In this document: one piece after another, positions 18,537 to 34,251 of the stretch
Layout: each line of letters begins with the position of its first letter
Position numbering within the stretch: the first letter of the stretch is position 1
From: Oxalicibacterium faecigallinarum
Lineage (GTDB): Bacteria > Pseudomonadota > Gammaproteobacteria > Burkholderiales > Burkholderiaceae_D
Direction of reading: 5' to 3'
DNA length: 64,000 bases
NCBI RefSeq assembly: GCF_014635705.1
Contig: NZ_BMDI01000001.1
Coordinates: forward strand, 760,008 to 824,007
Notes under the pieces: generated by a model
The model's database searches: none
The model's input: the letters and a program-made list of their open reading frames with translations, nothing else
Told to the model about the DNA's origin: nothing
Position numbers and translations under genes: made by a program

Positions 18537-18630
18537 TCAAAAAAAGTAGTCGCGATTATTACGCATTGCGGACAAGTATATAAAAAGGAAAGCGAATAAG
18601 AATATGCAAAAACCTTCGTTGGCCCAACTT

Positions 18631-18646
18631 GTATTAATACGTATTA
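18631..18646. promoter_or_regulatory. Overlapping palindromes, candidate GntR operator
   Basis: GTATTAATAC (18631-18640) and TAATACGTATTA (18635-18646) are both perfect palindromes and overlap. They lie between the divergent gntR gene and the ABC transporter operon, near the expected promoter of the latter. Confidence 0.55.
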
Positions 18647-18723
18647 TGACAAAAATCGCATGAATGACCCGAATTTTCGTTATTCATCTTGTCCGAATAT
18701 CACTGCCAGAACCCGCCAACACG

Positions 18724-19542
18724 ATGACTGTCGCTCGCAATGCTCACCTCACCGTTGAGAAAATCGGCTTCTCCTATCAGGAAGAACACACGGTATTCAA
18801 TGACTTTTCATTCGAGGCACGTCCGGGTGAGTTCATCGCTCTTCTTGGCCCTTCCGGCTGCGGTAAAAGCACGCTGTTGAATCTGCTTTCCGGCTTTCTT
18901 CAACCGAAAACCGGAAAGATCACCTTGAATGGCAAGTCCCTGCAACCGGAGTCACCGGAACTGGGATACGTTTTCCAGTCGCCGCAACTGTTCCCCTGGC
19001 TGAGCGCACTCGACAATGTGCGATTTGGCCTTCGCATGGGAGAAAGAGGCTCGACAACAGAGCAGCTGGAAAAGGCGCGCCATTATCTGGATATGGTTGG
19101 TCTGGCGCATGCAGAATCAAAACTGCCGCACGAATTGTCAGGTGGCATGCAGCAACGCGTTTCGCTCGCACGCACGCTGGCGATGGAACCATCACTCCTC
19201 TTGATGGATGAGCCGTTTGCGGCACTGGATGCAATTTCTCGTCAACTCATGAACGAAGAGTTGTTGAGACTCTGGTCCACCTTAGGTCAAACGGTTGTCT
19301 TTATTACGCATGACATTGACGAAGCCGTCTTTCTTGCCGACCGCGTGCTGGTGCTAGGTACCGCTCCCGCCGGCCTTCAGCACGAACTTCCTATCGCCTT
19401 GCCACGTCCGCGGACGCAGATAGAGACGCGTCGTCTGCCGCTTTTCCACGAATACAGCACCTCATTACTGGACAAGATATCCACCGCAGCACGACCTGTT
19501 GCTTCGTTCATACCTCATTTCATTTTCGAAAGCACCTTATGA
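18724..19542 (+). CDS. ABC transporter ATP-binding protein, SsuB/TauB type
   Basis: 272 residues from the ATG at 18724; an ATG at 18664 would add 20 residues, and neither has a strong ribosome site. Walker A GPSGCGKS, signature LSGGMQQRVSLARTLAM, Walker B LLLMDEPFAALDAISRQ and the H-loop VVFITHDIDEAVFLADRV identify the nitrate/sulfonate/taurine importer group. The product powers uptake with the permease at 20575 and the binding protein at 19539. It overlaps the binding-protein gene by ATGA. Confidence 0.9.
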   Translation: MTVARNAHLTVEKIGFSYQEEHTVFNDFSFEARPGEFIALLGPSGCGKSTLLNLLSGFLQPKTGKITLNGKSLQPESPELGYVFQSPQLFPWLSALDNVRFGLRMGERGSTTEQLEKARHYLDMVGLAHAESKLPHELSGGMQQRVSLARTLAMEPSLLLMDEPFAALDAISRQLMNEELLRLWSTLGQTVVFITHDIDEAVFLADRVLVLGTAPAGLQHELPIALPRPRTQIETRRLPLFHEYSTSLLDKISTAARPVASFIPHFIFESTL

Positions 19543-20573
19543 GAACCACCAAGCTTCTTCTCTCGGCCACGCTCGGCCTTTCCTTTCTTGGCGCCAGTCT
19601 GAGTACGCATGCACAAGATAAACCCTTGCGTATCGGCTGGGTATATGCACTTGGTAATGCGCCCGCAGTGATTGCCGACCGCAAGGGATTTTTCCGTGAA
19701 GAAGGTGTCAATGTCGAAATCAAATCCTTTGGCGATGGCCCTGTCGTGCAACAAGCACTCTCCTCTGGTGAACTCGATATGGCCTACATTGGCGTACCGC
19801 CTGTCTACCAGTGGTATGCACGCGGATTGAATAGTCGCATTCTGGCCAAGGTCAACTATGGTCAGGCTGCCGTGATCACGCAAGCCGACAGCAAGATCAA
19901 GGAAGTAAAAGATCTGAAAGGTGGCAAGATCGCTGGTATTGCCAAAGGTAGTGGCATGGACGTCCTGCTGCGCGGTTACGTACTGAAAGAGGCATCTGGC
20001 CTCGAGCCTGATCGCGACATCAATGTGGTCAGTATGCCGGCAGGCAACATGACAGCAGCGCTCGACCGCAATCTTGTGGATGCCGCATTCACATGGGAGC
20101 CTTTCATCTCGACAGCGCTATTACGCGGCACCAGCCGGGTCGTGCTGGATGTCAACAAAGCCATTCCGGAATATCCGTGGTATATCGTGATGGGCATGCC
20201 TCGCACATTGGCGCAACGTCCTGACGATGTGCTCAAAGTGCTCCGCGCACATCATCGTGCAATCGATTTTTTGAACAAGCATCCGGATGAAGCAAATCGT
20301 ATCCTGGCAGAAGCGTTCGAGATTGCGCCGGTGAAGACGGCTGATGGCCGTGAAATTGCACCGGTCAAGGTGATCGAAGAAGCACGCAAGCGGATCGGAT
20401 GGTCGGATCGTATCGAAAATACCGATCTGCAATTCATTCAGCGTCTGATCAACTACTCGCGCTCATTGGGCTTCCTGAACAAAGACCTCAAGGCGACCGA
20501 GTTCATTGACACGTCATGGCAGCAGCGCGCAGTACAAGCCCCGGCCAAACCTGCTGCTGCACGACAGAACTAA
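19539..20573 (+). CDS. ABC transporter periplasmic substrate-binding protein, SsuA/TauA-like
   Basis: 344 residues with a cleavable signal peptide (cut near STHAQ/DKPLRIG). The fold pattern LRIGWVYALGNAPAVIADRKGFFREEGVNVEIKSFGDG, in short form, with VVQQALSSGELDMAYIGVPPVYQW, matches the SsuA/TauA/NrtA group. Those proteins bind sulfonates, taurine, nitrate or pyrimidine precursors. The C-terminus is Ala/Pro-rich. The true ligand is unknown and should be the substrate of the hydrolase at 21369. It is followed by the permease gene after one base. Confidence 0.88.
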   Translation: MRTTKLLLSATLGLSFLGASLSTHAQDKPLRIGWVYALGNAPAVIADRKGFFREEGVNVEIKSFGDGPVVQQALSSGELDMAYIGVPPVYQWYARGLNSRILAKVNYGQAAVITQADSKIKEVKDLKGGKIAGIAKGSGMDVLLRGYVLKEASGLEPDRDINVVSMPAGNMTAALDRNLVDAAFTWEPFISTALLRGTSRVVLDVNKAIPEYPWYIVMGMPRTLAQRPDDVLKVLRAHHRAIDFLNKHPDEANRILAEAFEIAPVKTADGREIAPVKVIEEARKRIGWSDRIENTDLQFIQRLINYSRSLGFLNKDLKATEFIDTSWQQRAVQAPAKPAAARQN

Positions 20574-20574
20574 G

Positions 20575-21324
20575 ATGCGTCTTCCACGTCCTTCCTGGGG
20601 TTGGGCTTCGTTACCCGCCCTTGTTTTGCTATGGAGTCTCATTGCTACGCGTTTTCCTTCCTATATTCTTCCGCAGCCCTGGGAAGTTGCCGTGGAAGGA
20701 TGGCGCTGGCTGGGTGACGGCAAACTATGGCCGCATCTAGGCACCAGTCTTCTGGAAGAGCTTGGCGGTTTTTTTGCCGCTATCGTGGCGGCAGTCTTGC
20801 TTGGTGTTACCGCCGGCATATCGCCTGCATTCCGCAGTTTTCTCACACCGCTCAACAGCCTTTTTATGGCGATTCCACCGATTGCGTGGGCGCCGTTGAC
20901 GATGATCATCTTCGGACTCGGTTATCTATCGATCGTCAGCGTGATCTTCATTGCGGCCGTATGTCCGATGACGTTGGCGATCCAGGATGGCGTACAGGCC
21001 ATTCGGGGTGGCGAAGTACGCGCAGCACGCATTCTGGGTGCGAACCGCATGCAATTGCTGGTGCACGTGTACTTCCCTGCTTCACTGCCTGCATTCACAA
21101 CCGCATTGCGTGTGGGCTTTAGCCAGGCATGGCGTGCCCTGGTCGCCGCTGAAATGATCGGCGCCTCGCAAGGCATCGGCTGGATGGTATCGACCGGTGG
21201 TCAGATCGGAAATGCCAGCCAGGTTCTGCTTGGCATCGTACTGATCGGCCTCATTGCCTGGCTGGCCGAAAGCCTCGTGTTTCGAAGGATCGAACGCCAT
21301 TACCAAGTCTGGCGCAGTCACTAA
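20575..21324 (+). CDS. ABC transporter permease, SsuC/TauC-like
   Basis: 249 residues with about six membrane segments. The coupling-loop EAA-type motif is visible as EVRAARILGANRMQLLVHVYFPASLPAFTTALRVG, in pieces near residues 140-175, and is followed by AWRALVAAEMIGASQGIGWM, the typical SsuC/TauC stretch. The ATG at 20575 follows the upstream stop by one base; a longer frame would overlap the binding-protein gene by 68 bases. Confidence 0.9.
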   Translation: MRLPRPSWGWASLPALVLLWSLIATRFPSYILPQPWEVAVEGWRWLGDGKLWPHLGTSLLEELGGFFAAIVAAVLLGVTAGISPAFRSFLTPLNSLFMAIPPIAWAPLTMIIFGLGYLSIVSVIFIAAVCPMTLAIQDGVQAIRGGEVRAARILGANRMQLLVHVYFPASLPAFTTALRVGFSQAWRALVAAEMIGASQGIGWMVSTGGQIGNASQVLLGIVLIGLIAWLAESLVFRRIERHYQVWRSH

Positions 21325-21368
21325 TCTTCACCCATGTGATCGGCATCGCTGATCGACGAAAGTATTTT

Positions 21369-23771
21369 ATGAGCGATAAAACATCTTCCCTTTCTGTGCA
21401 GTATCAGGCATTACGCGAAAGACTCGGCCCGCATTATGCGCCGCAGGGGCTATACGAACGTAACAAGCAATTGCCATTTGTCGGTCGCGTAAACTGCAAT
21501 GTCTCGCAGCTGGAAACCGGCAGCTGGAACGAGATCGTGATCGACTATGAAGTCGGTGCTGCCGGACTTGCCGATGGCGGCTGGTTCAAGACGACCTTCA
21601 AGTTCTACTCGGACTGGGCCTTGTTTCAAACGAGCGATCCTTCGGCAGCCAACTACGTGAGTGCCGAATATCAGGCTGGTCCACTGGTAGCTGGCCAGAG
21701 CCCGGCAACCGTGCAGTCGCTAGCGGTGCGCTTTGACCAGAAAGGTCACGAACGTCCCTTTCAAAAAGCGATCATCGTCGATGTCGTAGACGGCTACCTG
21801 AATGCGGGCGACCACATCATCATTCGGCTTGGTGATCGACGTGGCGGTGGGCCAGGCACACGTGTACAGACGTTTACCGAAGATCGCTTCCGTTTCCGCT
21901 GCTATGTCGACCCACTCGGCACATCGCGTTTTGCGGCCGTTCCCGGCGATATCGTGATCGATATGGTGGCAGGTGATCCGGCGCGTATTCTGATTGCCGG
22001 TTCTCGCTTTTCGAAAACAGGAGAGGTCGCACCGTTCCGCGTTTCGCTGCAGGATCGCTGGGGCAATGCATGTACCGCGCAAGGTGGTGATCTTTTGCTG
22101 AAGGCCTTCGATGCCAAAGGTCATCAAGTCTATTCACGCACCCATGCATTTCCTTCAGAAGGCTGGGCAAGCATAGGAATCGATGATTTGCCAAGCGTGC
22201 GCGGCACATTAACCATCGTTGCAGAAACATCGGGACTCCCGGCAGTCAAGCCGGCAACGGCCTATCTGGACATTGACGACGATTATCCGGCACCGCGTTC
22301 CTTCTATGCCGATCTGCACGTACATGCCAGCGATACCGTTGGCACCAACAGTCCGGCCAGCAATGCGGCCTATGCGCGCGACATTGGCGGCATGGACGTA
22401 CTGGGCTACACGGCCAATGATTTCCAGATTACGGACGAGAACTGGCAACTTGGCGTGAGCACTGTCGAGGAATTCAACGAACCCGGACGGTTTGTCTGCT
22501 ATCCGGTTCAGGAGTGGTGCGGAAGTTCGACCGCAGGTGGCGATCACAACGTCGTGTTCCTTGGCGACGACAAGCCGGGATTCCCTTACAACGCGCGCGG
22601 CGAACATAACCGCACATTCCTCTGGAACGAGGACATGAAAGGCAGCGCTGTCGAAACAGGTCGCTGGCCGGTGGAAGAACTATGGGACGCCTACCTGCAT
22701 GATCCTCAGCATCACTTGATCATGCCGCATGTCGGTGGCCGTCGTTACATCCCCGACTGGCATCATCCGGAACTTGAACGCCTCGTTGAAATCGCATCGG
22801 CATGGGGTCACTTTGGCTGGTTGTACCAGGACGTCATTTCACGCGGATATCGTATCGGCGTCGCAGCCAGCGGCGATGAGCATCGCGGACGTCCAGGTGG
22901 CGGCCCGCCTGGCACCCAAGTGTTTGGTGTACACGGCGGCTTGACTGGCATCATTGCAGACACGCTCGACCGCAAGAGCATCGGTCGTGCGTTACGCAAT
23001 CGCCATACATGGGCAACCACCGGTGAACATACCGCCTTGCTGGTCACTGCCGGGCAACACCGGCAAGGCGATGAATTCACGCAGCAGGGGCCGCTAGAGA
23101 TCGATTACAAGTTGCTCGGCACCACCGGATGGGATGAGATTGCAGCCTATGACCATACGGGACTGATCTGGAAACGCAATTTGCATCAAGAACTCGGTTA
23201 CTCGGATCGCCTCATTCGCCTGCGTTGGGGTGGCGCACGCGTGCCGGATCGCTACCGCTGGGCTTCCTGGCGCGGTCGCATCACGATCACAAATGGCATC
23301 ATCAATCGCTTCCAGTCACATGGTTTCGAGCACGGTGAAGAAACCTGCTGGCGAGAAGGTGCAACCGATATCGGTTTTCGTAGCGATACTTATGGCGATG
23401 CCGATAGTATCGAAATCGACCTCAATAATCTGCGTAATTGCAAGATTCGTATCGAGGGAACAATTGACAGCTACGTCAAGGTTGGTGATCCGCTCAAACG
23501 AAATCCTTTCGTGCATGCGCCGGAATTCGTGTGGGAGATAAGCGGCGAAGAACTGATGGCAGGCGGTGCATTACGTCAGGAACTTGGCGGCACCGAACTC
23601 TTCCTTGCACTGGAACGTTTGACCGAAAAGGCATTGCCGATCTCCTTGACCGGCTCCTTGACGATCGATCCGAAGAATGCAGAATTTGGCCATCGTCCTG
23701 TCTATCTGCATGCACGCCAGCGCGATGATGCAAAGATATGGTCGTCTGCAATGTTCGTTACATTCGGTTAG
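21369..23771 (+). CDS. PHP/DUF3604-like metal-dependent hydrolase
   Basis: About 800 residues from the ATG at 21369. Residues ~1-300 are beta-rich. At residue ~313 a PHP-type motif begins (FYADLHVHASDTVG), followed by further likely metal ligands in YPVQEWCG, GGDHNVVFLGDD, LIMPHVGGRRYIPDWHHP and AASGDEHRGRPGG. This set matches DUF3604-like proteins of the PHP superfamily, which are metal hydrolases. There is no signal peptide, so it acts in the cytoplasm. As the last gene of an importer operon controlled by a GntR/UTRA regulator, it probably breaks down the imported compound, which is unknown. Confidence 0.75.
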   Translation: MSDKTSSLSVQYQALRERLGPHYAPQGLYERNKQLPFVGRVNCNVSQLETGSWNEIVIDYEVGAAGLADGGWFKTTFKFYSDWALFQTSDPSAANYVSAEYQAGPLVAGQSPATVQSLAVRFDQKGHERPFQKAIIVDVVDGYLNAGDHIIIRLGDRRGGGPGTRVQTFTEDRFRFRCYVDPLGTSRFAAVPGDIVIDMVAGDPARILIAGSRFSKTGEVAPFRVSLQDRWGNACTAQGGDLLLKAFDAKGHQVYSRTHAFPSEGWASIGIDDLPSVRGTLTIVAETSGLPAVKPATAYLDIDDDYPAPRSFYADLHVHASDTVGTNSPASNAAYARDIGGMDVLGYTANDFQITDENWQLGVSTVEEFNEPGRFVCYPVQEWCGSSTAGGDHNVVFLGDDKPGFPYNARGEHNRTFLWNEDMKGSAVETGRWPVEELWDAYLHDPQHHLIMPHVGGRRYIPDWHHPELERLVEIASAWGHFGWLYQDVISRGYRIGVAASGDEHRGRPGGGPPGTQVFGVHGGLTGIIADTLDRKSIGRALRNRHTWATTGEHTALLVTAGQHRQGDEFTQQGPLEIDYKLLGTTGWDEIAAYDHTGLIWKRNLHQELGYSDRLIRLRWGGARVPDRYRWASWRGRITITNGIINRFQSHGFEHGEETCWREGATDIGFRSDTYGDADSIEIDLNNLRNCKIRIEGTIDSYVKVGDPLKRNPFVHAPEFVWEISGEELMAGGALRQELGGTELFLALERLTEKALPISLTGSLTIDPKNAEFGHRPVYLHARQRDDAKIWSSAMFVTFG

Positions 23772-23782
23772 CAAGACTCTAT

Positions 23783-23812
23783 AAAAAACGGCGCTCTTCA
23801 GCGCCGTTTTTT
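23783..23812 (+). terminator. Rho-independent terminator after the PHP hydrolase gene
   Basis: AAAAAACGGCGCT-cttc-AGCGCCGTTTTTT, a perfect 7-bp GC-rich stem extended by A/T runs, 12 bases past the stop. Confidence 0.95.
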
Positions 23813-23897
23813 ATCGCAAATCAAATTTCTTCTCTATCCATTTGCCGCCTTCGCTGCATTTCCTCTCCTTAAATGGCAAATTCATGCGATTGGTTTA

Positions 23898-23917
23898 TAC
23901 TGTACATATAAACAGTA
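23898..23917. promoter_or_regulatory. LexA box (SOS operator)
   Basis: TACTGTACATATAAACAGTA fits the CTGT-N8-ACAG LexA consensus with both outer TA pairs also matching. It lies 154 bases before the nuclease gene and would block its promoter until the SOS response removes LexA. Confidence 0.88.
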
Positions 23918-24070
23918 TTTAACGATTGCCAGTGAAAATCACCGTCGATGAGACCTGGTGATTATTTAATCCTGATTTGTCGCGTCGATTCACAAGCAGG
24001 CGGACGGGACAATGCGCAGCTCCCGCCTCGTGACTATCACTGTCGGCATTAATCTGAAGCATAGCCGAGC

Positions 24071-25726
24071 ATGACCATCATCTTGACCGATCAGCCGAAC
24101 CCTTTGTATTACCTGGATAACTTCCGGCGCGTACTGGATTGGATCACTCAACGCTACAGCGATCTGCTCGTAAGCGAAGAGCAGGATTTTATCGAACGTT
24201 TTTCCCGATTACCGCAGGTTTCCCAGGCCTTGCTGGTGCGCATGGTCATGCGCAAAGGGACGCTTTTCCGCAGCAGCAAACTTCGTTACGACGAGATTGG
24301 CTGTTCAGATGCAGCCGTACAACCCTTGATCGCCCAAGGCTGGGTGGTGCCCAACCCTGTCATCTCCATTGAAGAGCTGTTTGGCCTGCTGAAAAAAGCA
24401 GAGGTGCTTGATACATTCAAGTTCGAGACGCACGCAAAGTCGGCACGCAAGGCTGACTTACTGGAGCATGTGCGAGATACGTTTTCCGAATCGCGCGCAT
24501 TTTCGGCGTGGTCGACACGTCTGGATGACAAGGTATATCAGGTATGCATTACAAATTGGTGCGAACGACTGCGTCTCATGTTCTTTGGCAATCTGCATCA
24601 GAACTGGTCGGAATTCGTGCTGTCCGATCTGGGAATTTATCGTTACGAGCAGGTCGAACTGACTGATACGGCGCGTGGCTTTCTGTCACGCCAGGATGTG
24701 GACGATTATCTTCATCTGCACAATTGTCGCGAATGCTTTGATCAGGGCGAGGCGCTTGATGACATCCTGTCAAAGATCCCGAATACGCCTTCTACCAATC
24801 CGTGGATCGAAAGCCGTCGCAACAAACTGCTATTCAAGCTCGCCTATCAATATGAGCGCTGTGGCGAAACCGACACCGCCCTGACCATCTATCGGCAATG
24901 CCGCTATCCAGGTGCGCGCCTGCGTCAGATTCGCGTTCTGGAACGTTGTCATGAAATCGATGCAGCCTATACGCTGGCACAGCTCGCCAGCCAGATACCA
25001 GAGAGCGAGGCCGAACATCAATCCCTGCAGCGCATCCTGCCACGTTTGATCAAGAAGCGCGGGCTTGTCAAACACCTACCGGTCAAACGTGCAGCGATCG
25101 AGCAATTCAATCTGGTGCTGCCCTACCCCGCACAGCCAACCAGCGTCGAACATCTGGTGTGCAAGCATTACTCTTGCGAACGTGCGCCGACGCTGTATGT
25201 GGAAAACACCTTAATCAATTCCCTGTTCGGCCTGTTGTGCTGGCCGGCGATTTTCGCGCCTCTGCCAGGTGCGTTCTTCCATCCGTTTCATCATGGTCCG
25301 GCCGATTTGCATAGTCCCGATTTTTATTCGCGTCGCGCTGTACTGTTTGACGCATGTCTGGCGCAACTTGATAGTGATGCGTATCGAGATGCGATACTGC
25401 AAACATTTCATACCAAGCACGGCATCCAGTCGCCGTTTGTTTTCTGGCATGCAATGGACGAAGCCCTGCTGACACTGGCGCTCTCCTGTCTGCCTGCTGC
25501 CCATCTAAGAAAATGGTTTGAACGCATCCTGCTTGACATTCCCTCCAACCGCTCGGGTTTTCCTGATCTGATCCAGTTCTGGCCGCAAGAAAACCGGTAC
25601 CGCATGCTGGAGGTCAAAGGCCCCCGTGATCGTCTGCAAGACAACCAGATCCGCTGGCTGGAATACTGTGTCGCACATGCAATGCCTGTTGCTGTCTGCT
25701 ACGTGCAATGGGAAGAAGCGGCATGA
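24071..25726 (+). CDS. Bacterial FAN1-type VRR-NUC nuclease
   Basis: 551 residues, close to the length of Pseudomonas FAN1. The C-terminal VRR-NUC domain shows the PD-(D/E)xK site: PD near residue 498-499 (GFPDLIQFW) and LEVKGPRD with Glu514 and Lys516, then DNQIRWLEYC. The N-terminal half has the SAP-like and helical wHTH layout of FAN1 (LVRMVMRKGTLFRSSKLRYDEIG, in short), and TPR-like helices occupy the middle. FAN1 cuts 5' flaps and unhooks interstrand crosslinks. It overlaps the helicase gene by ATGA, and a LexA box precedes it. Confidence 0.9.
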   Translation: MTIILTDQPNPLYYLDNFRRVLDWITQRYSDLLVSEEQDFIERFSRLPQVSQALLVRMVMRKGTLFRSSKLRYDEIGCSDAAVQPLIAQGWVVPNPVISIEELFGLLKKAEVLDTFKFETHAKSARKADLLEHVRDTFSESRAFSAWSTRLDDKVYQVCITNWCERLRLMFFGNLHQNWSEFVLSDLGIYRYEQVELTDTARGFLSRQDVDDYLHLHNCRECFDQGEALDDILSKIPNTPSTNPWIESRRNKLLFKLAYQYERCGETDTALTIYRQCRYPGARLRQIRVLERCHEIDAAYTLAQLASQIPESEAEHQSLQRILPRLIKKRGLVKHLPVKRAAIEQFNLVLPYPAQPTSVEHLVCKHYSCERAPTLYVENTLINSLFGLLCWPAIFAPLPGAFFHPFHHGPADLHSPDFYSRRAVLFDACLAQLDSDAYRDAILQTFHTKHGIQSPFVFWHAMDEALLTLALSCLPAAHLRKWFERILLDIPSNRSGFPDLIQFWPQENRYRMLEVKGPRDRLQDNQIRWLEYCVAHAMPVAVCYVQWEEAA

Positions 25727-28074
25727 CGGATGGTATCTGCCATATGCGTGACGATGCATCGGATCCCGACAAAGGCCGGATCTATACCGTAGCCGTACGC
25801 GCCTTGTGCGAATTCACAGCCAAACAAGGGGACCTCGATCTACGCTTCACACCCTCGCCTTCTGCCTTGGAAGGTATGGCCGGGCACACCACCGTAACCT
25901 CCCGTCGTGCCAAACATTACGAATCTGAAGTCAGTCTGTCCGGTGACTACAAACAACTGCACGTCCGTGGCCGCGCAGATGGCTATGATCCAAAACGAAA
26001 CCGGGTGGAAGAAATCAAGACCTTCCGTGGCGACTTGGAAAAAATGCCGGACAATCACCGGCATCTGCACTGGGCGCAAGTACGCATCTACGGATGGTTG
26101 CTGTGTCAGTCGCGCAGCCTTGCAGAAATCGAGACCGCGCTGGTCTACTACGATATCGGTACACAGAAGGAAACCGTACTGGTCGAAACCTGTACCGCCA
26201 GCATGCTGCAACAGTACTTCGAGGAACACTGTGAAGACTTCATCGCCTGGGCAGAACAGGAAGTACAACATCGCACTGTGCGCGATGCCGCCTTGACCAG
26301 CCTGACTTTTCCGCATGCAGATTTCCGGCAAGGTCAGCGGCAACTTGCAGAAGCCGTCTACAAATCAGCAGTGGCCGGCAGATGTCTGATGGCCCAGGCA
26401 TCGACTGGCATTGGCAAGACCATCGGCACCATCTTTCCCTTGCTGAAAGCCAGCGCCACGCAAAAAATCGACAAGCTTTTCTTCCTCACCGCCAAGACCT
26501 CTGGCCGTGCATTGGCGCTGGATGCCATTCACCTTATCCGGCAGCATCAACCCGCTTCGCCCTTGCGCGTGCTCGAACTGGTCGCGCGCGACAAATCCTG
26601 CGAGCATCCGGACAAGGCGTGCCATGGCCAGTCATGTCCGCTGGCCAAAGGCTTTTATGACCGTGTTGGTCAGGCACGGCAGGCGGCAGTCCGTGTCGTC
26701 ATGCTCAATCAGGCCAGCCTGCGCGCCATCGCGCTGGCCCACCAGGTATGTCCCTACTATCTCAGTCAGGAACTGGCACGCTGGAGCGATGTAGTCATTG
26801 GGGATTACAACTATTACTTTGACGGCAGTGCCATGCTTTACGCGCTGACGACTGAGAACCAGTGGCGCATCAGCCTGTTGATCGACGAAGCCCACAATTT
26901 GCTCGAACGTGCCCGCAAAATGTACTCCGCCGAACTGGATCAACAGCAGTTTCGTTCATTGCGGCAGACGGCACCCAAGTCACTCAAGGGCCCGCTTGAT
27001 CGCCTCCATCGACAATGGCAAGCGTTACACGCTGAACAAACGAGCGACTATCAGGTGCATGCCGGGATCAGCAGCAAGTTTCTGCTCTCGCTCCAGCAAG
27101 TCGGCGCCGATATCGCCGACTTCATTGCAGAAAATCCGGAGAGCATGCATGCTGACTTGCAACAGTTCTATTTCGATGCCTTGCACTTCACACGTCTGGC
27201 AGAATGTTTTGGTGACCATTCACTGTTTGACATTACCAAGACGAATGCACAAGGCGGTCGCAAGAATGGCCGGCTTTGCCTGCGCAATGTAATCCCGGCC
27301 CCTTTTTTGCAGAAGCACTTTACCAGCTCGCATGCATGCACGCTGTTCTCGGCGACGCTCAGTCCTTGGCATTTTTATGCCGACACGTTGGGCATGCCGG
27401 ACAATACAGTCTGGATTGAAGTCGAAGCGCCGTTTGAAACAAGACAGCTTTCCGTCCACATCGCTCACACAATTTCTACCCGCTATCAGGATCGTGAACA
27501 CTCCTTATCGGCAATTGTCGATCTGATCGCACGGCAATACAGCACACAAGCTGGCAACTACCTCGCTTTCTTCAGCAGTTTCGATTATCTAAACAAGGTC
27601 TGCACCTTGTTTGTAGAACGCTATCCCGATATCCCTGTCTGGCAACAATCGCGTCGTATGGCGGAAGATGAGCGCAAGGCGTTTCTTGATCGCTTTACGC
27701 CAGACGGTAATGGCATTGGCTTCGCCGTCTTGGGCGGCGCTTTTGCAGAAGGCATTGACCTGCCAGGCAATCGCCTGATCGGTGCATTTATCGCGACGCT
27801 CGGACTGCCGCAAGTCAATGAAATCAACGAACAGATGCGCTATCGCATGCAGGAATCTTTTGGTGATGGCTACGACTACATGTATCTGTATCCCGGCTTA
27901 CAGAAGGTCGTACAGGCCGCTGGGCGCGTCATTCGTACACAGCAGGACCAAGGCGTCATTCATCTGATGGATGATCGATTCGGAAGGGAAAAAGTACTGG
28001 ACCTGCTGCCACGATGGTGGGGGATGGGGAAAAGCGAAGCTAAAGAATATTGTCAGAAGAAAAATGAAGGCTAG
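25723..28074 (+). CDS. XPD/DinG-type DNA helicase with N-terminal PD-(D/E)xK-like domain
   Basis: 783 residues. The N-terminus (~60-170) resembles a RecB/Cas4-like nuclease fold with EEIKTF (Glu97, Lys99). Walker A STGIGKT has Lys232. Four cysteines between residues ~290 and 350 (SCEHPDKACHGQSCPL..HQVCPYYL) could hold an Fe-S cluster as in XPD/DinG. The DEAH box is at ~388-391 (LLIDEAHNL), and helicase motifs V/VI are seen in GGAFAEGIDLPG and QAAGRVIRT. It would unwind DNA 5' to 3'. The ATG at 25723 overlaps the nuclease stop, so the two proteins are made together. Confidence 0.88.
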   Translation: MTDGICHMRDDASDPDKGRIYTVAVRALCEFTAKQGDLDLRFTPSPSALEGMAGHTTVTSRRAKHYESEVSLSGDYKQLHVRGRADGYDPKRNRVEEIKTFRGDLEKMPDNHRHLHWAQVRIYGWLLCQSRSLAEIETALVYYDIGTQKETVLVETCTASMLQQYFEEHCEDFIAWAEQEVQHRTVRDAALTSLTFPHADFRQGQRQLAEAVYKSAVAGRCLMAQASTGIGKTIGTIFPLLKASATQKIDKLFFLTAKTSGRALALDAIHLIRQHQPASPLRVLELVARDKSCEHPDKACHGQSCPLAKGFYDRVGQARQAAVRVVMLNQASLRAIALAHQVCPYYLSQELARWSDVVIGDYNYYFDGSAMLYALTTENQWRISLLIDEAHNLLERARKMYSAELDQQQFRSLRQTAPKSLKGPLDRLHRQWQALHAEQTSDYQVHAGISSKFLLSLQQVGADIADFIAENPESMHADLQQFYFDALHFTRLAECFGDHSLFDITKTNAQGGRKNGRLCLRNVIPAPFLQKHFTSSHACTLFSATLSPWHFYADTLGMPDNTVWIEVEAPFETRQLSVHIAHTISTRYQDREHSLSAIVDLIARQYSTQAGNYLAFFSSFDYLNKVCTLFVERYPDIPVWQQSRRMAEDERKAFLDRFTPDGNGIGFAVLGGAFAEGIDLPGNRLIGAFIATLGLPQVNEINEQMRYRMQESFGDGYDYMYLYPGLQKVVQAAGRVIRTQQDQGVIHLMDDRFGREKVLDLLPRWWGMGKSEAKEYCQKKNEG

Positions 28075-28140
28075 CCACGTTGCTTTGATCGATTCACATG
28101 GTGACCTTGATGGCTATGCCCGTATGCCAATCACACCACA

Positions 28141-28557
28141 CTAGTGATAGACATCATTTGAAACAGATCGCGAGGATGCATACGCCGAATAATAAGGTAC
28201 GCGATACGTTGCCGATAAAACCTTGTCGATCAAAGTCAACAGGTCTTCCGTTTGAAACGGCTTTCCAAGCACAGGCCCAGATAAAGCTTCTGACGTAGGT
28301 GCAAACGCGGTAATAAAGACAAATGGGATGCCCTGATATCTCTCGTCGTTTTGCATGTATCGACGAAGTACCGTCCCTGTCGCCTCGGGCATCAATACAT
28401 CGCTGAGCACCAGGTCAATCGATTCACTTTCAAGCGCGATACGCGCTTCCTTGACGGATGCGGCTGTGATCGCACGGAAGCCGTGATACGTCAGCAGCTC
28501 TTTCATGACTTCGAGAATTTCGATTTCGTCATCGACAATGAGGACTGTGCATTTCAT
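28141..28557 (-). CDS. Stand-alone response-regulator receiver protein
   Basis: 138 residues from the ATG at 28557. It is a single receiver domain: acidic pair VDDE near residue 8, phospho-acceptor Asp in LVLSDVLMPEATG, Thr in FVFITAFAPTSE and Lys in LGKPF. No output domain follows, only a short tail. The TAFAPTSE..GKPF segment is shared with the receiver at 48594 (TAYAPTSD..RKPF), so the two are paralogues. It lies downstream of a NarL-type two-component pair on the same strand, but 220 bases apart. Confidence 0.85.
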   Translation of the reverse strand: MKCTVLIVDDEIEILEVMKELLTYHGFRAITAASVKEARIALESESIDLVLSDVLMPEATGTVLRRYMQNDERYQGIPFVFITAFAPTSEALSGPVLGKPFQTEDLLTLIDKVLSATYRVPYYSAYASSRSVSNDVYH

Positions 28558-28777
28558 ATACTTGACTCTCGTTCTGACAGTCAATTTGAACACGTCCCTC
28601 TGAAAATTCTTTGTTAGATAGGCCTCACAAGGTCAAAAATACATGAGTCGATAGTAAAAAATACAAGTTGGGATCGATAGCAGAAGTCATCCTTCCCGTC
28701 AAAGTGAAAACCTTGCCAAGTAAAATCATGTTGAATGCAGGCTTCTGGGGCAGTCGCTAACGACAAGTCAATGAAAA

Positions 28778-29416
28778 TCAGGCTTCATCGATCAAGCCAT
28801 GCTTGAGCGCGTAATGCACCAGATGCGTGGTAGTTGTCGCATCCATCTTTTGCAGGATGGCCGCTTTGTGCGTGCTGATGGTCTTGTTGCTTAGGGAAAG
28901 TATCTTGGCGATATCGTTTACCGCATGACCTTCGACCAACATGTTAAAGATCTGAAACTCACGCGCCGTCAGTTGCGTATGCGGCAAAGCCTCTTCCCGC
29001 TTGTGCATCTGCCGAATCAGCTTGGCAGATATTTCCGGAGACACGTAGGTCTCTCCCTTTGCGACAGCACGTATGCCTTCAATCAACTGACTCGATGCCG
29101 TGTTCTTTGAAATATAACCAGAGGCGCCGGCACGCATGGCCTGCACGGCATACTGACTTTCCTGATGCATGCTGAGGATCAGGATCGGCAATGCAGGCTG
29201 CAAGGCATGCAATTGCTGAATCAATGCAATGCCGCTACGGCCGGGCATCGACATGTCGAGCAATAACACCTCGAACTGACAGGTGCGTACTTTCTGCAAT
29301 ACTTCATCACCATCACCGGCCTCACCCACAACCTGCATCTCGGGCACAAAGGAAATAATCTGTTTAAGGCCGTCACGAATGATGGCGTGATCGTCTGCAA
29401 TGATGATGCGGATCAT
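28778..29416 (-). CDS. NarL/UvrY-type response regulator
   Basis: 212 residues: an N-terminal receiver (ADDH acidic pair, LLLDMSMPGRSG phosphorylation site, conserved Lys in SGYISKN) and a C-terminal LuxR-type helix-turn-helix (LTAREFQIFNMLVEGHAVNDIAKILSLSNKTISTHKAAILQKM in overview). It overlaps the sensor kinase gene by ATGA and is certainly its partner. The target genes are unknown. Confidence 0.93.
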   Translation of the reverse strand: MIRIIIADDHAIIRDGLKQIISFVPEMQVVGEAGDGDEVLQKVRTCQFEVLLLDMSMPGRSGIALIQQLHALQPALPILILSMHQESQYAVQAMRAGASGYISKNTASSQLIEGIRAVAKGETYVSPEISAKLIRQMHKREEALPHTQLTAREFQIFNMLVEGHAVNDIAKILSLSNKTISTHKAAILQKMDATTTTHLVHYALKHGLIDEA

Positions 29417-30477
29417 GGTGCACCTCCGTCAGTCGCTGCATGCAATGGAATATGAACAAGAATCCGCGTGCCTTCACCAGACTGGCTCTCCACTTCAAGA
29501 CGCCCGCCAAGCATGAAGACGCGTTCGCGCATGCCGACCAGCCCCAACCCTTTACTACGTATGGTGGACGGCTCGATACCGCGACCGTTGTCGGCAATCT
29601 GCATCACGAGCACTGCCCCATCCACATCAATCGCCACGTCGACATGACTTGCCTTGCTGTGCCGGCTGACGTTGGTCAATGCCTCCTGCAAGACACGAAA
29701 GATCGCAGTGCTGATATCAGAGGACACATCGTCTGGCAGCGCAGGTGTATGCAAGGCATAGGCGATACCGGTTCGTTCAGAAAACGATTCGAGCAACCAA
29801 TCCACTGCCGCATGCAAGCCCAGTTCATCCAGCATCTGCGGGCGCAAGTCGGCGGCGATGCGTTGCACCGATTCCATCGTCGAGCCGGCGATCGCCTGCA
29901 AGCGTTTTACCTGTTGCTGTCGGGATTGATCCGGCATGCCGGGTTGAGCATCAATCACGTCCAGACCGATACGGATTGCCGTCAGTGACTGCCCCAATTC
30001 ATCATGCAGTTCGCGCGCTATGCGTGTGCGCTCTTCCTCGCGTACGGATTGCAGGTAGGCAGACAGTTCGCGCAATTGGGTCCGTGATTCCAGCAAGGCC
30101 TGTTCAGCGCTCTTGCGGTCGGTGATGTCACGCGAAATGCCGGTCGTGCCGATCACCTCGCCCGACTCGTTGTAGATCGGCGTCTTGATCGTGTCATACC
30201 ACCGCATATGACCATCGGCGCCACGGCGTTGCTCTTCATAGCGATATCGCTGACCGCTCTGCATGACTTGCCGGTCCGAAATCTTGTATTTCTCGCCCCA
30301 CGCAACTGGCCAGACTTCGTCCGGCGTCTTGCCGATGATTTCCGCTTCGCTCTTCTGGCAGGCAGCCATGAAGGCATCATTGACGAGAATGTAACGCGAC
30401 TCCACATCCTTGAGCCAAGCCTGATCGGGGATATTGTTGAGGATGGCCCGTTGCAGCTCATCGTCATGATGCGTCAT
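29413..30477 (-). CDS. PAS-domain sensor histidine kinase of the NarX/HisKA_3 group
   Basis: 354 residues with no membrane segment, so the kinase is cytoplasmic. Residues ~8-120 are a PAS domain ending in a PAC motif (GTTGISRDITDRKSAEQAL). The dimerisation helix carries the phospho-accepting His in RIARELHDELGQSLTAIR (about residue 158). The HATPase domain shows DNGRGIEP and GLGLVGMRERV..LGGRLEVES. It is transcribed with the NarL-type regulator. The PAS ligand cannot be told from sequence. Confidence 0.92.
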   Translation of the reverse strand: MTHHDDELQRAILNNIPDQAWLKDVESRYILVNDAFMAACQKSEAEIIGKTPDEVWPVAWGEKYKISDRQVMQSGQRYRYEEQRRGADGHMRWYDTIKTPIYNESGEVIGTTGISRDITDRKSAEQALLESRTQLRELSAYLQSVREEERTRIARELHDELGQSLTAIRIGLDVIDAQPGMPDQSRQQQVKRLQAIAGSTMESVQRIAADLRPQMLDELGLHAAVDWLLESFSERTGIAYALHTPALPDDVSSDISTAIFRVLQEALTNVSRHSKASHVDVAIDVDGAVLVMQIADNGRGIEPSTIRSKGLGLVGMRERVFMLGGRLEVESQSGEGTRILVHIPLHAATDGGAP

Positions 30478-30565
30478 GCCTGATCTCCATGTTTTTCTTA
30501 CACTGTACGATCAATTGCTACATCGTGCAGCCCCATACATCGCGCATTTACGGAAAATACAGAAT

Positions 30566-30592
30566 AAAAAAGGACAGGCCAGCCTGTCCTTT
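30566..30592 (-). terminator. Rho-independent terminator after the first gamma-glutamyltransferase gene
   Basis: Read leftward: AAAGGACAGGC-tg-GCCTGTCCTTT followed by further T. An 11-bp stem, 15 bases past the stop at 30607. Confidence 0.9.
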
Positions 30593-30606
30593 ACATTCAC
30601 CCTGTT

Positions 30607-32304
30607 TTACACCGCTAATGCACGACCATCGCTGCGCGGATCGTGTGCACCAGAGAATTTCTTGCCTGATGCATCAATCACAATCGCACCCGGATGACCG
30701 GACAGCGGGCTTTGTGCCGGCAATGTACTGATCTCGTGCCCACGCTTGGCCAGCTCTGCAAATACCTCCTCGCCTGCATCCTGTTCCAGCTTGAGCGTAT
30801 CGCGCGTATCCGAGAAGGTTTTTCCAAGCAGAAAACGCGGCTTGGAAAGCGCCGTATAAGGATCCAGACCGTAATCGATCATGCGCGTCAGAATCGCCGT
30901 CAGCGTTTGTGGCTGGCCATCGGCACCTTGCGTTCCATACAAAATCCGCGGCTTGCCATTCTGCATAAACATGCCCGGATTGAGCGTATGGAACGGACGC
31001 TTGCCGGGCTTGAGTTCGTTTGGATGTCCGGGCTTGAGGCTGAACGACGCACCACGGTTATGCCAGAGAATCCCCGTATCGCCGGCCATCACGCCGCTGC
31101 CCCAATCGAAATACACCGTTTGCAACATCGAGACTGCATTGCCATACGCATCTGCTGCACCGATAAACACGGTATCGCCGGTACGGAAGACATGCGGCCA
31201 GGCCAGTGCCTTTTTCATGTCGATCGCCTGCGCGCGTTTCTTCAGGTGCTCGGTGGAGAGCAGCTTCGCGACCGGCACATCCACAAACTCCGGATCGGCG
31301 ACATACCGATTACGGTCAATGAAGGCCTGCTTCACCGCTTCGACCAGCAGGTGATAGTAGTCGGCACTGCCCTCGCGCATCTTCCGCAGATCGAACTGAT
31401 TGAGGATACCCATGATTTCCAGCGTCGTCATGCCCTGCGTCGGAGGCTGATTCGCAAGCAGGAAACCTTCACGATAAGCGACCTGCAATGGCGCTTCCAC
31501 ACGTGCCTGCGTTTTTGCGAGATCGCTTGCCGTAATCGGTGAACCGGCTTCGCGCAGGCCTCTGGCGATACGCTCTGCCAACTGGCCTTCATAAAAATCG
31601 CGATAGCCGCGTGCTGCCAAGGTCTCCAGCGTATCGGCCAATTGTGGCTGACGGAACGTCGCGCCGATCTCGGGCGCCTTGCCATCCTGCATGAAATGAT
31701 GTGCGATGGCAGGCAGATCGGTCAGCTCCTTCTGCCGAAAATCCATCCAGAAACGCTCGGATGGTGTGACCGGAAAACCGTTACGCGCCAAACCGATCGC
31801 AGGCGTCAATAACTCGGCCCAGCTGCGCTTGCCGCCCAGTTCGTTGCGACTGATATCGAATGCCTTGCCCAAGGTATCCACATTGGCCGCCGTCGTCAGC
31901 ATGGAGGCGGCACCGCGTACCGGAATGCTGTTGCCGTATTGCGGCAACACAGCCGGTGCCTGTCCGATACCGGACAAGGTACGCACCTTACCGTTGCTGT
32001 CACTGATGATCATGAAACCATCACCGCCAAAGCCTGAAAAATGCGGGTAAGTCACATTGAGGCAGGCGGCGATTGCAACAGCGGCTTCGATCGCATTTCC
32101 TCCCTCCTGCAACACACGCTGTCCGGCCTGCGTTGCCAACTCATGCGGACTGGTCGCCATGCCCTTGGTCGATTGCGCCAGACCGTTCTTGTCGGTGCCC
32201 TCCCGGCTCAGCGCCATCGGGGCCACCGAGCCGAGAGCAAGCGCACCCGATGCAGTCAGAAAACTGCGACGTGTCATCTCTGCAAACCTTGTCTTGTGTT
32301 CCAT
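30607..32304 (-). CDS. ggt: Gamma-glutamyltransferase, Tat-exported
   Basis: 565 residues. A Tat-type signal TRRSFLTASGALALG lies near residue 10, so the enzyme is exported folded. N-terminal hallmark MATSPHELATQAGQRVLQEGGNAIEAAVA, summarised; NAVSMLQTVYFDWGSGVM in the small subunit. The likely self-cleavage Thr is in RTGDTVFIGAADAYGNAV (near residue 370). The GTQGADGQPQTL motif is typical. The ATG at 32304 follows AAAGGAG by five bases. It transfers or hydrolyses gamma-glutamyl groups, e.g. of glutathione, in the periplasm. A second family member lies in the same operon. Confidence 0.9.
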   Translation of the reverse strand: MEHKTRFAEMTRRSFLTASGALALGSVAPMALSREGTDKNGLAQSTKGMATSPHELATQAGQRVLQEGGNAIEAAVAIAACLNVTYPHFSGFGGDGFMIISDSNGKVRTLSGIGQAPAVLPQYGNSIPVRGAASMLTTAANVDTLGKAFDISRNELGGKRSWAELLTPAIGLARNGFPVTPSERFWMDFRQKELTDLPAIAHHFMQDGKAPEIGATFRQPQLADTLETLAARGYRDFYEGQLAERIARGLREAGSPITASDLAKTQARVEAPLQVAYREGFLLANQPPTQGMTTLEIMGILNQFDLRKMREGSADYYHLLVEAVKQAFIDRNRYVADPEFVDVPVAKLLSTEHLKKRAQAIDMKKALAWPHVFRTGDTVFIGAADAYGNAVSMLQTVYFDWGSGVMAGDTGILWHNRGASFSLKPGHPNELKPGKRPFHTLNPGMFMQNGKPRILYGTQGADGQPQTLTAILTRMIDYGLDPYTALSKPRFLLGKTFSDTRDTLKLEQDAGEEVFAELAKRGHEISTLPAQSPLSGHPGAIVIDASGKKFSGAHDPRSDGRALAV

Positions 32305-32322
32305 AGCATCTCCTTTGCTCAA

Positions 32323-32877
32323 TCAAGCCTTGTGACGTGCGTGTACTTCGCCGTGTACCTTTTCAGGGAAGGTATTTTTCAGTGGCGTATGACGATGCGA
32401 GAAGTTGGCCGTGATCCATGCGTAGAGCGGACCGATGGCATTCATCACAATCACGATGCCGAGCGCAGACAAGGGATCTTTCGGCGTTGGACCAAAGCCG
32501 CCGAACATGGTGGCAAAGAACGAGGCAAAGCCGAAGAACATGCCGGGAATAAAACCAAGGCCCGGCAAACGTGCAAGCAACATCATGCCGGCGTTCAGAC
32601 AAAACAGAATGATCATCTCGGCGATGACCAGGCTGCTGCCCGAGAAATGCTGACCGGCGATGCCGAATCCTGTGACCACCAGAAAACCGGCGATGGAGCC
32701 AATCGGCAATGTCGGCCAGATGCGCTTGAGATTTTCCGGCGACGGCCCGCCCATGGCGAATGTGCCCGCCCAGCTGATAAAGATTGCCCAGACCGGCAGA
32801 TGCCATGGCAGTTGAACCATAAGTACGGTGGTAACGGCGAGCAGCGATGCAACGACTTCGTGTGGTGGCTTTTTCAT
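32323..32877 (-). CDS. DUF1097-type membrane protein
   Basis: 184 residues with about five membrane segments (LLAVTTVLMVQLPWHLPVWAIFISWAGTF at the start, ILFCLNAGMMLLARLPGLGFIPGMFFGFASFFATMFGG in the middle). The layout matches DUF1097 proteins such as YcdZ, whose function is unsettled. It lies between the amidohydrolase and gamma-glutamyltransferase genes, with gaps under 30 bases, so it may be a channel for their substrate or product. The C-terminus is His-rich (HGEVHARH). Confidence 0.8.
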   Translation of the reverse strand: MKKPPHEVVASLLAVTTVLMVQLPWHLPVWAIFISWAGTFAMGGPSPENLKRIWPTLPIGSIAGFLVVTGFGIAGQHFSGSSLVIAEMIILFCLNAGMMLLARLPGLGFIPGMFFGFASFFATMFGGFGPTPKDPLSALGIVIVMNAIGPLYAWITANFSHRHTPLKNTFPEKVHGEVHARHKA

Positions 32878-32904
32878 GTTTGTCTCCTGTTGGACTGCGC
32901 AGTT

Positions 32905-34227
32905 TTAATTTTTTGCAGTTTTCTTTTCTGTTTGATCGTGCTTGTGTTCTTGTGCATGGTCGTGACCGCAACAGCCACGCCCGTGAATCTCGCAGTGGTA
33001 GTGCGTCGTAACGGTGACCTTGCCGCGCTTGATTACCCATGAGCGCGGCGGCATATCCAGCAGCACGTCAGCCACGGCATAGGTATCGAGAATGACAAGA
33101 TCGGCCTGCTTGCCGACTGCAATCCCGTAATCGCTACCGATACCGATGGATCGCGCGGCATTCGTTGTTCCCATCTCGAGAATCGCAGCCTGATGTGCAG
33201 GGGTACCGTACGAGATCGCGTGCGCCAGCATGCTTCCGATCACGAGCATGTCGGCCTTGCCAAATGGCGTGAATGCATTGCGAATGTTGTTGGAAGAGTA
33301 GGCAACGTTGACGCCCCCCTCCTGCAAGGCACGCACCGGCGTCAAACCACGTCGACGATTCTTCGTGTCATTGCGGCCACCGAGATAAAGATCGGTCGCC
33401 GGCAAGGTCACCATGCTGACGTCGGCCTTCTGCAACAGCTCGATCACGGGTTTCAACTGATCCGGCTCCATCGAACCCAGACTGGTCACGTGCCCCAGCG
33501 AGACACGACCGTTGTAACCGGTATCAATGGTCTTCTGTGCAATGTAAGCCGTTGCTGCAAAACGCTGATCCTTGCATTCGTCCGAAAAATCGGCGTGCAT
33601 GTCGATCGGCATGTCGTGCTTCTGTGCCATCTCGAAGACGATATCGATATGACGTTTGGTATCGTCCCATGACAGTTCGTTGTATGGACAACCACCGATT
33701 ACATCGGCACCCATCTTGACCGCCTGCTCCATGAGTTCGGTCGTACCCGGTGATTTGAGTATGCCTTCCTGCGGAAACGCCACGATCTGGATATCGAGCA
33801 GATCACGATATTCATCCTGCAGCTCGACCAGCGTTTCGACACCGATCAATCCCTGAATCAGATCAACATCGGGATGCGCACGAATCGCGACCGTGCCGTT
33901 TTTGACAGCCATGTCAAGAATCTGGCGCGAACGTGCCAGCACATCCTTGCGTTCCTGCTTGCCCTTGAGGATGCCCGTGACGCGAATTGCCTCGTCGAGG
34001 GTCCCTTGCACCGGTGGCATGCGCCGATGCAAAAATGCCTTCTCAATATGCAGATGCGGTTCTACCAGCCCTGGAATGACCGCTCTTCCCTGCGCATCGA
34101 TTGTTTGCGTCGCGGAGGCTTCAAGGCCTTCTTCGATTGCGACGATCTTTCCGCCTTTCACGCCAATGTCCATCAAGGGCTTATCGTCCCAGATGCGCAC
34201 ATTGCGTACTAACAGGTCCATCTCCAT
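32905..34227 (-). CDS. Amidohydrolase of the cytosine deaminase/AtzC type with metal-binding tail
   Basis: About 440 residues. The metal-dependent TIM barrel shows PHLHIEKAF (HxH), further ligands in IDMHADFSDE and LGHVTSLGS, and a catalytic-Asp-type SSNNIRNAF segment where deaminases have DNVRDPF. Cytosine deaminase and related aminohydrolases are the nearest well-known relatives. The last ~35 residues are rich in His and Cys (HYHCEIHGRGCCGHDHAQEH) and may bind metal. The ATG at 34227 lies six bases after AAGGAG; the ATG at 34233 is too close to it. The substrate is unknown. Confidence 0.78.
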   Translation of the reverse strand: MEMDLLVRNVRIWDDKPLMDIGVKGGKIVAIEEGLEASATQTIDAQGRAVIPGLVEPHLHIEKAFLHRRMPPVQGTLDEAIRVTGILKGKQERKDVLARSRQILDMAVKNGTVAIRAHPDVDLIQGLIGVETLVELQDEYRDLLDIQIVAFPQEGILKSPGTTELMEQAVKMGADVIGGCPYNELSWDDTKRHIDIVFEMAQKHDMPIDMHADFSDECKDQRFAATAYIAQKTIDTGYNGRVSLGHVTSLGSMEPDQLKPVIELLQKADVSMVTLPATDLYLGGRNDTKNRRRGLTPVRALQEGGVNVAYSSNNIRNAFTPFGKADMLVIGSMLAHAISYGTPAHQAAILEMGTTNAARSIGIGSDYGIAVGKQADLVILDTYAVADVLLDMPPRSWVIKRGKVTVTTHYHCEIHGRGCCGHDHAQEHKHDQTEKKTAKN

Positions 34228-34251
34228 CACCATCTCCTTTGGATAAAACCA

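Follow-up and report, generated by a model that had tools for sequence, protein, structure and literature searches.

A probable LexA-controlled operon of a FAN1 nuclease and an EndoDinG-type helicase-nuclease in Oxalicibacterium faecigallinarum

Described relatives and the two proteins of the locus

In a 64,000-nucleotide stretch of the Oxalicibacterium faecigallinarum genome (the window; contig NZ_BMDI01000001.1, positions 760,008 to 824,007), a gene for a FAN1 nuclease (24071-25726, + strand) is directly followed by a gene for a helicase fused to a nuclease domain (25723-28074, + strand), and a near-perfect LexA (SOS) box precedes the pair. Similar components occur together in human cells, where FAN1 and FANCJ bring a FAN1 nuclease and an XPD-family helicase with an iron-sulfur (Fe-S) cluster into one crosslink-repair pathway; there, however, the genes are separate and FANCJ is not known to have a nuclease domain. 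Escherichia coli DinG and YoaA are XPD-family Fe-S helicases like the window protein but are not known to carry a nuclease domain, and DinG is a LexA-regulated SOS gene. The window helicase scores far below the NCBIfam equivalog cut-offs for DinG and YoaA (78 vs 598 bits and 93 vs 680 bits, respectively).

Closer relatives exist for each of the two proteins. FAN1 of Pseudomonas aeruginosa (PaFAN1, PA1865; PDB 4r89 and 5y7g) has the same domain order as the window FAN1, which matches it over nearly the whole length and keeps its catalytic residues. Cutting of 5' flaps and a role in crosslink repair are ascribed to PaFAN1 (as cited in the accessible parts of PMC9635880 and PMC12796719), and in the accessible literature it figures as a single enzyme, with no mention of a helicase partner or a LexA box. 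As to the helicase, the EndoDinG subgroup was named in 2025 (Cheng 2025; PMC11981726, accessible sections) for proteins with a nuclease centre of H, E, D and E + K and a CCCC Fe-S motif, a shortened Arch domain and the absence of beta7 in motor domain 2 being further traits; endonuclease activity of the EndoDinG of B. bacteriovorus is cited there as unpublished. The EndoDinG passages of that paper mention no LexA control of the subgroup, and FAN1 is not named in its main text. In a third system, mycobacterial Lhr-Nei2, a helicase and a DNA-repair enzyme share an operon that is induced by damage and has been linked to the repair of crosslinks, but the helicase is of another type and a lyase stands in place of the FAN1 nuclease (accessible parts of PMC11323726).

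A literature search covering titles and abstracts, with most subscription journals beyond its reach, found neither a FAN1-helicase pairing nor LexA control of FAN1. Most VRR-NUC clades, that of FAN1 included, adjoin genes of DNA metabolism (PMC9635880, in part, after Iyer 2006), and given the reach of our search the pairing may have been noted before. The parts are thus known, the helicase type itself being already described as EndoDinG (PMC11981726), whereas the combination of FAN1 with the helicase and its LexA control are apparently new.

The first gene encodes 551 residues, with Pfam matches to FAN1_HTH (7e-39), FANC_SAP (1e-12) and VRR_NUC (1e-34) in this order, all above curated cut-offs, and a TPR match below cut-off. 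The nearest solved structure is PDB 4r89 (E 4e-198; human FAN1 about 2e-25), and the catalytic residues E378, D499, E514 and K516 are invariant in 123 aligned sequences which, like those of the helicase alignment, were chosen by similarity, so that conservation is somewhat overstated. Sequences with fewer than 480 (FAN1) or 700 (helicase) aligned residues were excluded, and loci L018-L023, L104-L121 and L140-L169 are also outside both alignments. Judged by these matches the protein is a bacterial FAN1 of the PaFAN1 type (VRR-NUC, KIAA1018 clade), for which the family activities of 5'-flap cleavage and crosslink unhooking are predicted.

In the second protein (783 residues) Pfam recognises DEAD_2 and Helicase_C_2 and finds no nuclease family. 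Its nearest solved relative is PDB 9kqh, named by Foldseek as Finegoldia magna DinG with single-stranded DNA, which aligns with residues 23-766 (E 5e-115; Foldseek E 3.6e-57); the full-length model has a predicted local distance difference test (pLDDT) score of 79.5. The Walker lysine K232 and residues D388 and E389 of the DEAH motif are invariant in 124 sequences. A stretch at 26599-26751 (+) holds the four cysteines of a putative Fe-S cluster, of which C293, C305 and C343 are kept in 124/124 and C300 in 123/124 sequences. The initial annotation, made from the sequence alone, had read this protein as an XPD/DinG core with a possible Fe-S cluster, and the two Pfam domains and the four conserved cysteines agree with it.

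The same annotation had pointed to a nuclease-like motif, EEIKTF, near the N-terminus, and this motif is real. It lies in a PD-(D/E)xK domain of the RecB/Cas4/EXO5 type (25774-26322, +), delimited by conservation, modelling and fold matches, in which H55, E69, D86, E97, K99 and Q119 are invariant in all 124 aligned sequences. The isolated domain is modelled with a pLDDT of 89, and its fold matches 9kqh, SSO0001, RecE, EXO5, lambda exonuclease, Cas4, AddAB and AdnAB. An N-terminal H-E-D-ExK nuclease, a CCCC Fe-S motif and an XPD-type core are common to the window helicase and 9kqh, which we take to be an EndoDinG; by these features the window protein fits the EndoDinG subgroup, and an endonuclease activity may be predicted for it accordingly.

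The genes overlap, as had been annotated, by four bases: in the ATGA at 25723-25726 (+) the helicase ATG starts at 25723 and the FAN1 stop TGA occupies 25724-25726. The mechanically assigned start of the helicase reading frame at 25708 is unlikely to be the true start.

The LexA box and its recurrence, with the gene pair, in related genomes

At 23898-23917 (+) lies the box TACTGTACATATAAACAGTA, which agrees with TACTGTN8ACAGTA at all 12 specified positions, so that its earlier description as near-perfect holds, and with TACTGTATATATATACAGTA at 18/20 positions. In a scan of the 64-kb window it was the sole site without mismatch among 15 sites with up to 3 mismatches; as shuffled sequences alone give 9.0 such sites, the looser matches carry no meaning.

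The O. faecigallinarum genome has one LexA gene, closely preceded by two boxes, and the operon box is of the same motif class as both. The 8-base core CTGTN8ACAG proves nothing alone, since it occurs at 46 sites in this genome vs 53 for the reversed control, and for this reason spacer, flanks, neighbours and recurrence were used instead. Flanks were read for 31 of the 46 sites (the first fifteen, and others lying in L001 or in stretches chosen mostly for AT-rich spacers), and twelve of these score at least 14/20. The highest scores (19/20) belong to boxes before two radical SAM proteins, one of TIGR03916 and one of the PA0069 family, followed by imuA, FAN1 and a divergent HAD_SAK_2 pair (18/20), dinB and a umuD-like gene (17/20), recA (16/20) and lexA itself (15 and 14); two further boxes (16/20 and 14/20) have no close gene. 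With 18/20, beside 18 for imuA, 17 for dinB, 16 for recA and 15/14 for lexA, the operon box ranks with those of canonical SOS genes, which supports the operon as a predicted member of the LexA (SOS) regulon.

Two other loci with such boxes may be mentioned. The HAD_SAK_2 genes (L249, 932-1456 and 1625-2071) diverge from a common LexA box between them and are, to our knowledge, not standard SOS genes. The TIGR03916 radical SAM gene (L253, 1566-2819), behind its 19/20 box, encodes a putative DNA modification or repair protein.

The initial annotation had suggested a comparison of gene neighbourhoods across relatives, in which the two genes might have turned out to be apart in most genomes; in the samples searched this was not found, and both the pairing and a LexA-like box recur. 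In 250 genomes of Burkholderiales, FAN1 (counted over cut-off, which leaves three FAN1_HTH hits in G185, G279 and G357 outside the counts) occurs in 16, the window's own genome included, and the helicase (E <= 1e-30) in 26. All 16 FAN1 genomes possess the helicase (Fisher p 8e-19, descent ignored), and in 15 of them the genes are adjacent on the same strand, the exception being G302; this adjacency comes from match coordinates, the short loci themselves showing the helicase in 11/15. Among 185 genomes sampled from the class, FAN1 is present in 7, the helicase in 5 and both in 4, all four being adjacent. The helicase is directly downstream of FAN1 in 76 of 80 named loci (the best of 588 confirmed), and the other four, all from Pseudomonas, carry it elsewhere. 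Stutzerimonas stutzeri KOS6 (L095) and Herbaspirillum autotrophicum IAM 14942 (L025) are among the named strains with both pair and box. Within the Pseudomonadaceae, FAN1 was found in 352/398 genomes. Seventy loci from 69 of these genomes were inspected, namely the 30 best PaFAN1 matches, with the helicase next to FAN1 in 19, and 40 others (G569 and 39 picked stepwise from the list), with the helicase next to FAN1 in 36. A four-base start/stop overlap is available in 49/76 named, 8/11 order and 21/36 fetched Pseudomonadaceae loci.

Boxes were sought from -150 to +10 of FAN1 by a strict rule (CTGTN8ACAG, or one core mismatch with >=13/20) and by a loose rule (CTG-N10-CAG with >=11/20). The strict rule yields a box in 74/80 named loci, in 29/30 and 36/40 of the two Pseudomonadaceae sets, in 5/15 Burkholderiales loci (without the window's own genome) and in 2/5 class loci; the class count does not include L020, whose start lies within less than 150 bases of the end of its contig. 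Fifty dinucleotide shuffles gave means of 0.00-0.26 with a maximum of 3/80. The corresponding values for the loose rule are 76/80, 28/30, 40/40, 7/15 and 2/5, and 20 base shuffles yielded at most 2 in any set. The 65 distinct box sequences collected are alike in their core partly due to the rule itself. Applied as a control, a looser rule also found boxes of the LexA class upstream of lexA in 23 of the 24 genomes with a located start (26 loci examined). In G569 the lexA boxes include CTGTN8CCAG and CTGGN8ACAG, and as the same class precedes lexA, the variants seen before Pseudomonas FAN1 genes look like ordinary LexA boxes. The distance from box start to FAN1 start codon is 173 bases in the window and 20-85 bases in 71/80 named loci. 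In L024 the box lies outside the search range at -335 (18/20), in an intergenic region otherwise unlike that of the window.

The low count in Burkholderiales goes along with the absence of LexA, which is encoded in 10 of the 16 FAN1 genomes. The strict rule finds a box in 7 of these 10 (G000, G191, G239, G302, G316, G361 and G390), if one accepts for G302 a box at -8 that the strict count misses and that was counted separately, and 9 of 10 are reached by counting CTGGN8CCAG in G321 and G420, a variant accepted only after it had appeared among the misses. The remaining one, G303, lacks a box before its lexA as well. By either rule none of the 6 LexA-less genomes has a box. For this association Fisher p is 0.011 (strict) or 9e-4 (loose) with descent ignored, the six LexA-less genomes being from two families only. 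Five of these six operons (in G360, G432, G391, G334 and G371; loci L105, L106, L108, L111 and L113) instead carry a palindrome, GAACGWWCGTTC, beside a TATAAT-like hexamer some 50-70 bases before FAN1, which occurs at one site in 1.87 Mb of other loci. These LexA-less operons may have come under another repressor. In 400 kb (7.6%) of G432 the palindrome GAACGNNCGTTC has 1 exact site, with no recognised SOS gene behind it, and sites with one mismatch close to a gene that by eye looks like the TetR type.

In all five genomes with separated genes, G302 and the Pseudomonas genomes G433-G436, each of the two genes is boxed by the loose rule; by the strict rule this holds for three of five, as the helicase boxes of G433 (12/20) and G436 (11/20) fail. 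The four Pseudomonas cases probably share one separation event.

Proposed role and alternative explanations

We consider it quite probable that the locus is a LexA-repressed two-gene operon for DNA repair, made up of FAN1 and an XPD-type Fe-S helicase with a RecB/Cas4-type nuclease domain. The box, the pair, the domains, the conserved active sites and the recurrence of pair and box can be read directly from the sequence, and from them we infer LexA binding, induction by damage in O. faecigallinarum, translational coupling, joint action and the substrate. Upon DNA damage, activated RecA would trigger self-cleavage of LexA and so derepress the operon, and a single transcript would yield FAN1 and then, via translational coupling at the ATGA, the helicase. 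Where an interstrand crosslink or a bulky lesion blocks a fork, the helicase, acting 5'-3' as is usual in the XPD/DinG family, would open the duplex and make or extend a flap; FAN1 would cut near the 5' flap junction and trim past the crosslink, with the helicase's own nuclease trimming or making a second cut, and the resulting gap or end could pass to RecA and the translesion polymerases of the same SOS response.

Experimental data are reported from P. aeruginosa, where PA1865, identified with the crosslink-unhooking nuclease, and PA1866 are induced by ultraviolet C (UV-C) light; for PA1865, induction by ciprofloxacin and repression by hydrogen peroxide are described as well (PMC12796719, accessible parts). 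G569, the genome nearest to PaFAN1 in our family sample (its FAN1 shares 91% identity with 4r89 across 309 residues), has the box ATCTGTATGCATGAACAGTA at -36 of FAN1 and the helicase next to it. By analogy, we predict PA1866 to be the helicase and PA1865-PA1866 to be under LexA control.

Several observations weigh against this interpretation. According to the same accessible parts of PMC12796719, PA1865 and PA1866 are placed outside the known LexA, PrtR and AlpR regulons. In the Pseudomonadaceae, 11 of the 30 loci nearest to PaFAN1 and 4 of the 40 others lack a helicase gene beside FAN1, and three genomes of the class sample (G060, G069 and G143) have FAN1 without a helicase at cut-off, G060 and G069 also lacking a box. 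The named loci, being the most similar ones, are an uneven sample; they overlap with the Pseudomonadaceae sets and many Pseudomonas genomes share descent, so that the counts are not independent. Among the Burkholderiales genomes with the helicase only, 8/10 have no LexA-like box (one of the eight, G299, has no LexA), those with a box being G341 and, by the loose rule, G281; SOS control thus goes with the pair and less with the lone helicase, which need not by itself be an SOS gene. Finally, single copies may be defective: the helicase of G361 carries a TGA within the match, and the FAN1 of G162 (L018), which adjoins a helicase and is not among the 123 aligned sequences, has K at the position equivalent to E514, either a natural loss of the nuclease or a sequence error.

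As to the substrate, we regard crosslink repair as the likely role of the operon, since biochemical work on the FAN1 family indicates the unhooking of crosslinks (PMC9635880 and PMC12796719, accessible parts). This is also what speaks against a broader function, in which the operon would be a general SOS unit for processing forks and flaps that clears flaps, R-loops and collapsed forks after any damage, with crosslinks as one substrate of many. That explanation has to be taken seriously, even though we lean away from it, as neither UV-C nor ciprofloxacin, to which PA1865 responds, is a crosslinker, and as the nuclease domain of the helicase resembles EXO5, RecE and Cas4-type nucleases.

The two proteins might also be independent repair enzymes on one promoter, both useful under SOS conditions, that are co-regulated and do not act jointly. 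The helicase does occur without FAN1 in 10 of the 26 helicase-bearing genomes of the order (L122-L131), and the two genes are separated in G302 and in four Pseudomonas genomes; FAN1, however, never occurs without the helicase in the order sample (16/16), and separated genes are both boxed (5/5 by the loose rule), so that we consider independent action rather unlikely. An anti-phage or anti-plasmid defence system, in which the helicase would work in the manner of CasDinG or DdmD, is very improbable: the PADLOC profile typeIV_DinG (PDLC01439) does match the helicase at 400 bits and its Foldseek matches include CasDinG and DdmD, but no PADLOC profile matches FAN1, the box belongs to the LexA class, and the neighbourhood is no defence island by these scans, as the ten flanking genes scanned with Pfam code for transporters, sensors, regulators, enzymes and DUF proteins and include nothing cas-like, and no short-spaced repeat array is present in 18000-35000.

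Of the proposal in the initial annotation, an SOS-induced machine for crosslink repair, the part that stands is a single LexA-controlled unit of FAN1 and helicase-nuclease, in which both box and pairing recur; as a whole it is partly supported. A wider reading would be that the operon corresponds in bacteria to a section of the Fanconi pathway, one SOS-induced crosslink machine across Pseudomonas, Halomonadaceae and Burkholderiales, with another repressor acting at GAACGWWCGTTC in LexA-less lineages; this is a tentative idea that we hold to be doubtful. With a helicase-nuclease partner and LexA control, bacterial FAN1, treated as a lone enzyme in the accessible work, would gain a pathway, and EndoDinG would gain a biological role. 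The damage induction of PA1865/PA1866, left open in the accessible parts of PMC12796719, would be explained, and a simple system would be at hand for a possible cooperation of FAN1 with an XPD-family helicase.

Flanking features and variant FAN1 genes

The transcription unit appears to consist of the two genes, given a hairpin upstream and a gene on the opposite strand, a response regulator (28141-28593), downstream. The hairpin (23781-23814, +), at the end of the upstream DUF3604 gene, sets the operon apart from that gene; it was obtained by RNA folding of 23772-23822, has the shape of an intrinsic terminator with a 15-pair stem (-20.6 kcal/mol, z -6.8) and is not listed by the pattern scan. 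A weak candidate for a sigma-70-like promoter, ATGGCA-17-TATACT (23873-23901, +), has a -10 element running into the LexA box and represents weak evidence, as the consensus scan gave 3 sites vs 3.8 expected in shuffles. Between box and FAN1 (23898-24070) there are short frames in the window and in L024, none apparently common to both that would indicate a leader peptide, and neither Rfam families nor tRNA genes were found in the window. The outer neighbours encode an NMT1/BPD-type ABC transporter, a two-component pair, a gamma-glutamyltranspeptidase, a DUF1097 protein and an amidohydrolase.

Some FAN1 genes deviate from the common form. A fusion of FAN1 with the helicase was considered for G420 only, where the helicase open frame extends to 1538 residues, and was rejected since in that locus (L115) FAN1 ends with a stop codon of its own; no search aimed at fusions was made. 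In G823 (L164) FAN1 is a shorter open frame of 420 residues, its end separated from the downstream helicase match by about 400 bases, and possibly a broken copy. The divergent FAN1 of G143 (L210, 4968-7124), for which no helicase was detected at the cut-off used, is fused to a C-terminal DnaQ-like exonuclease and has a LexA-like box of its own, TACTGTTTTTATAGACAGTA, at -40 (17/20).

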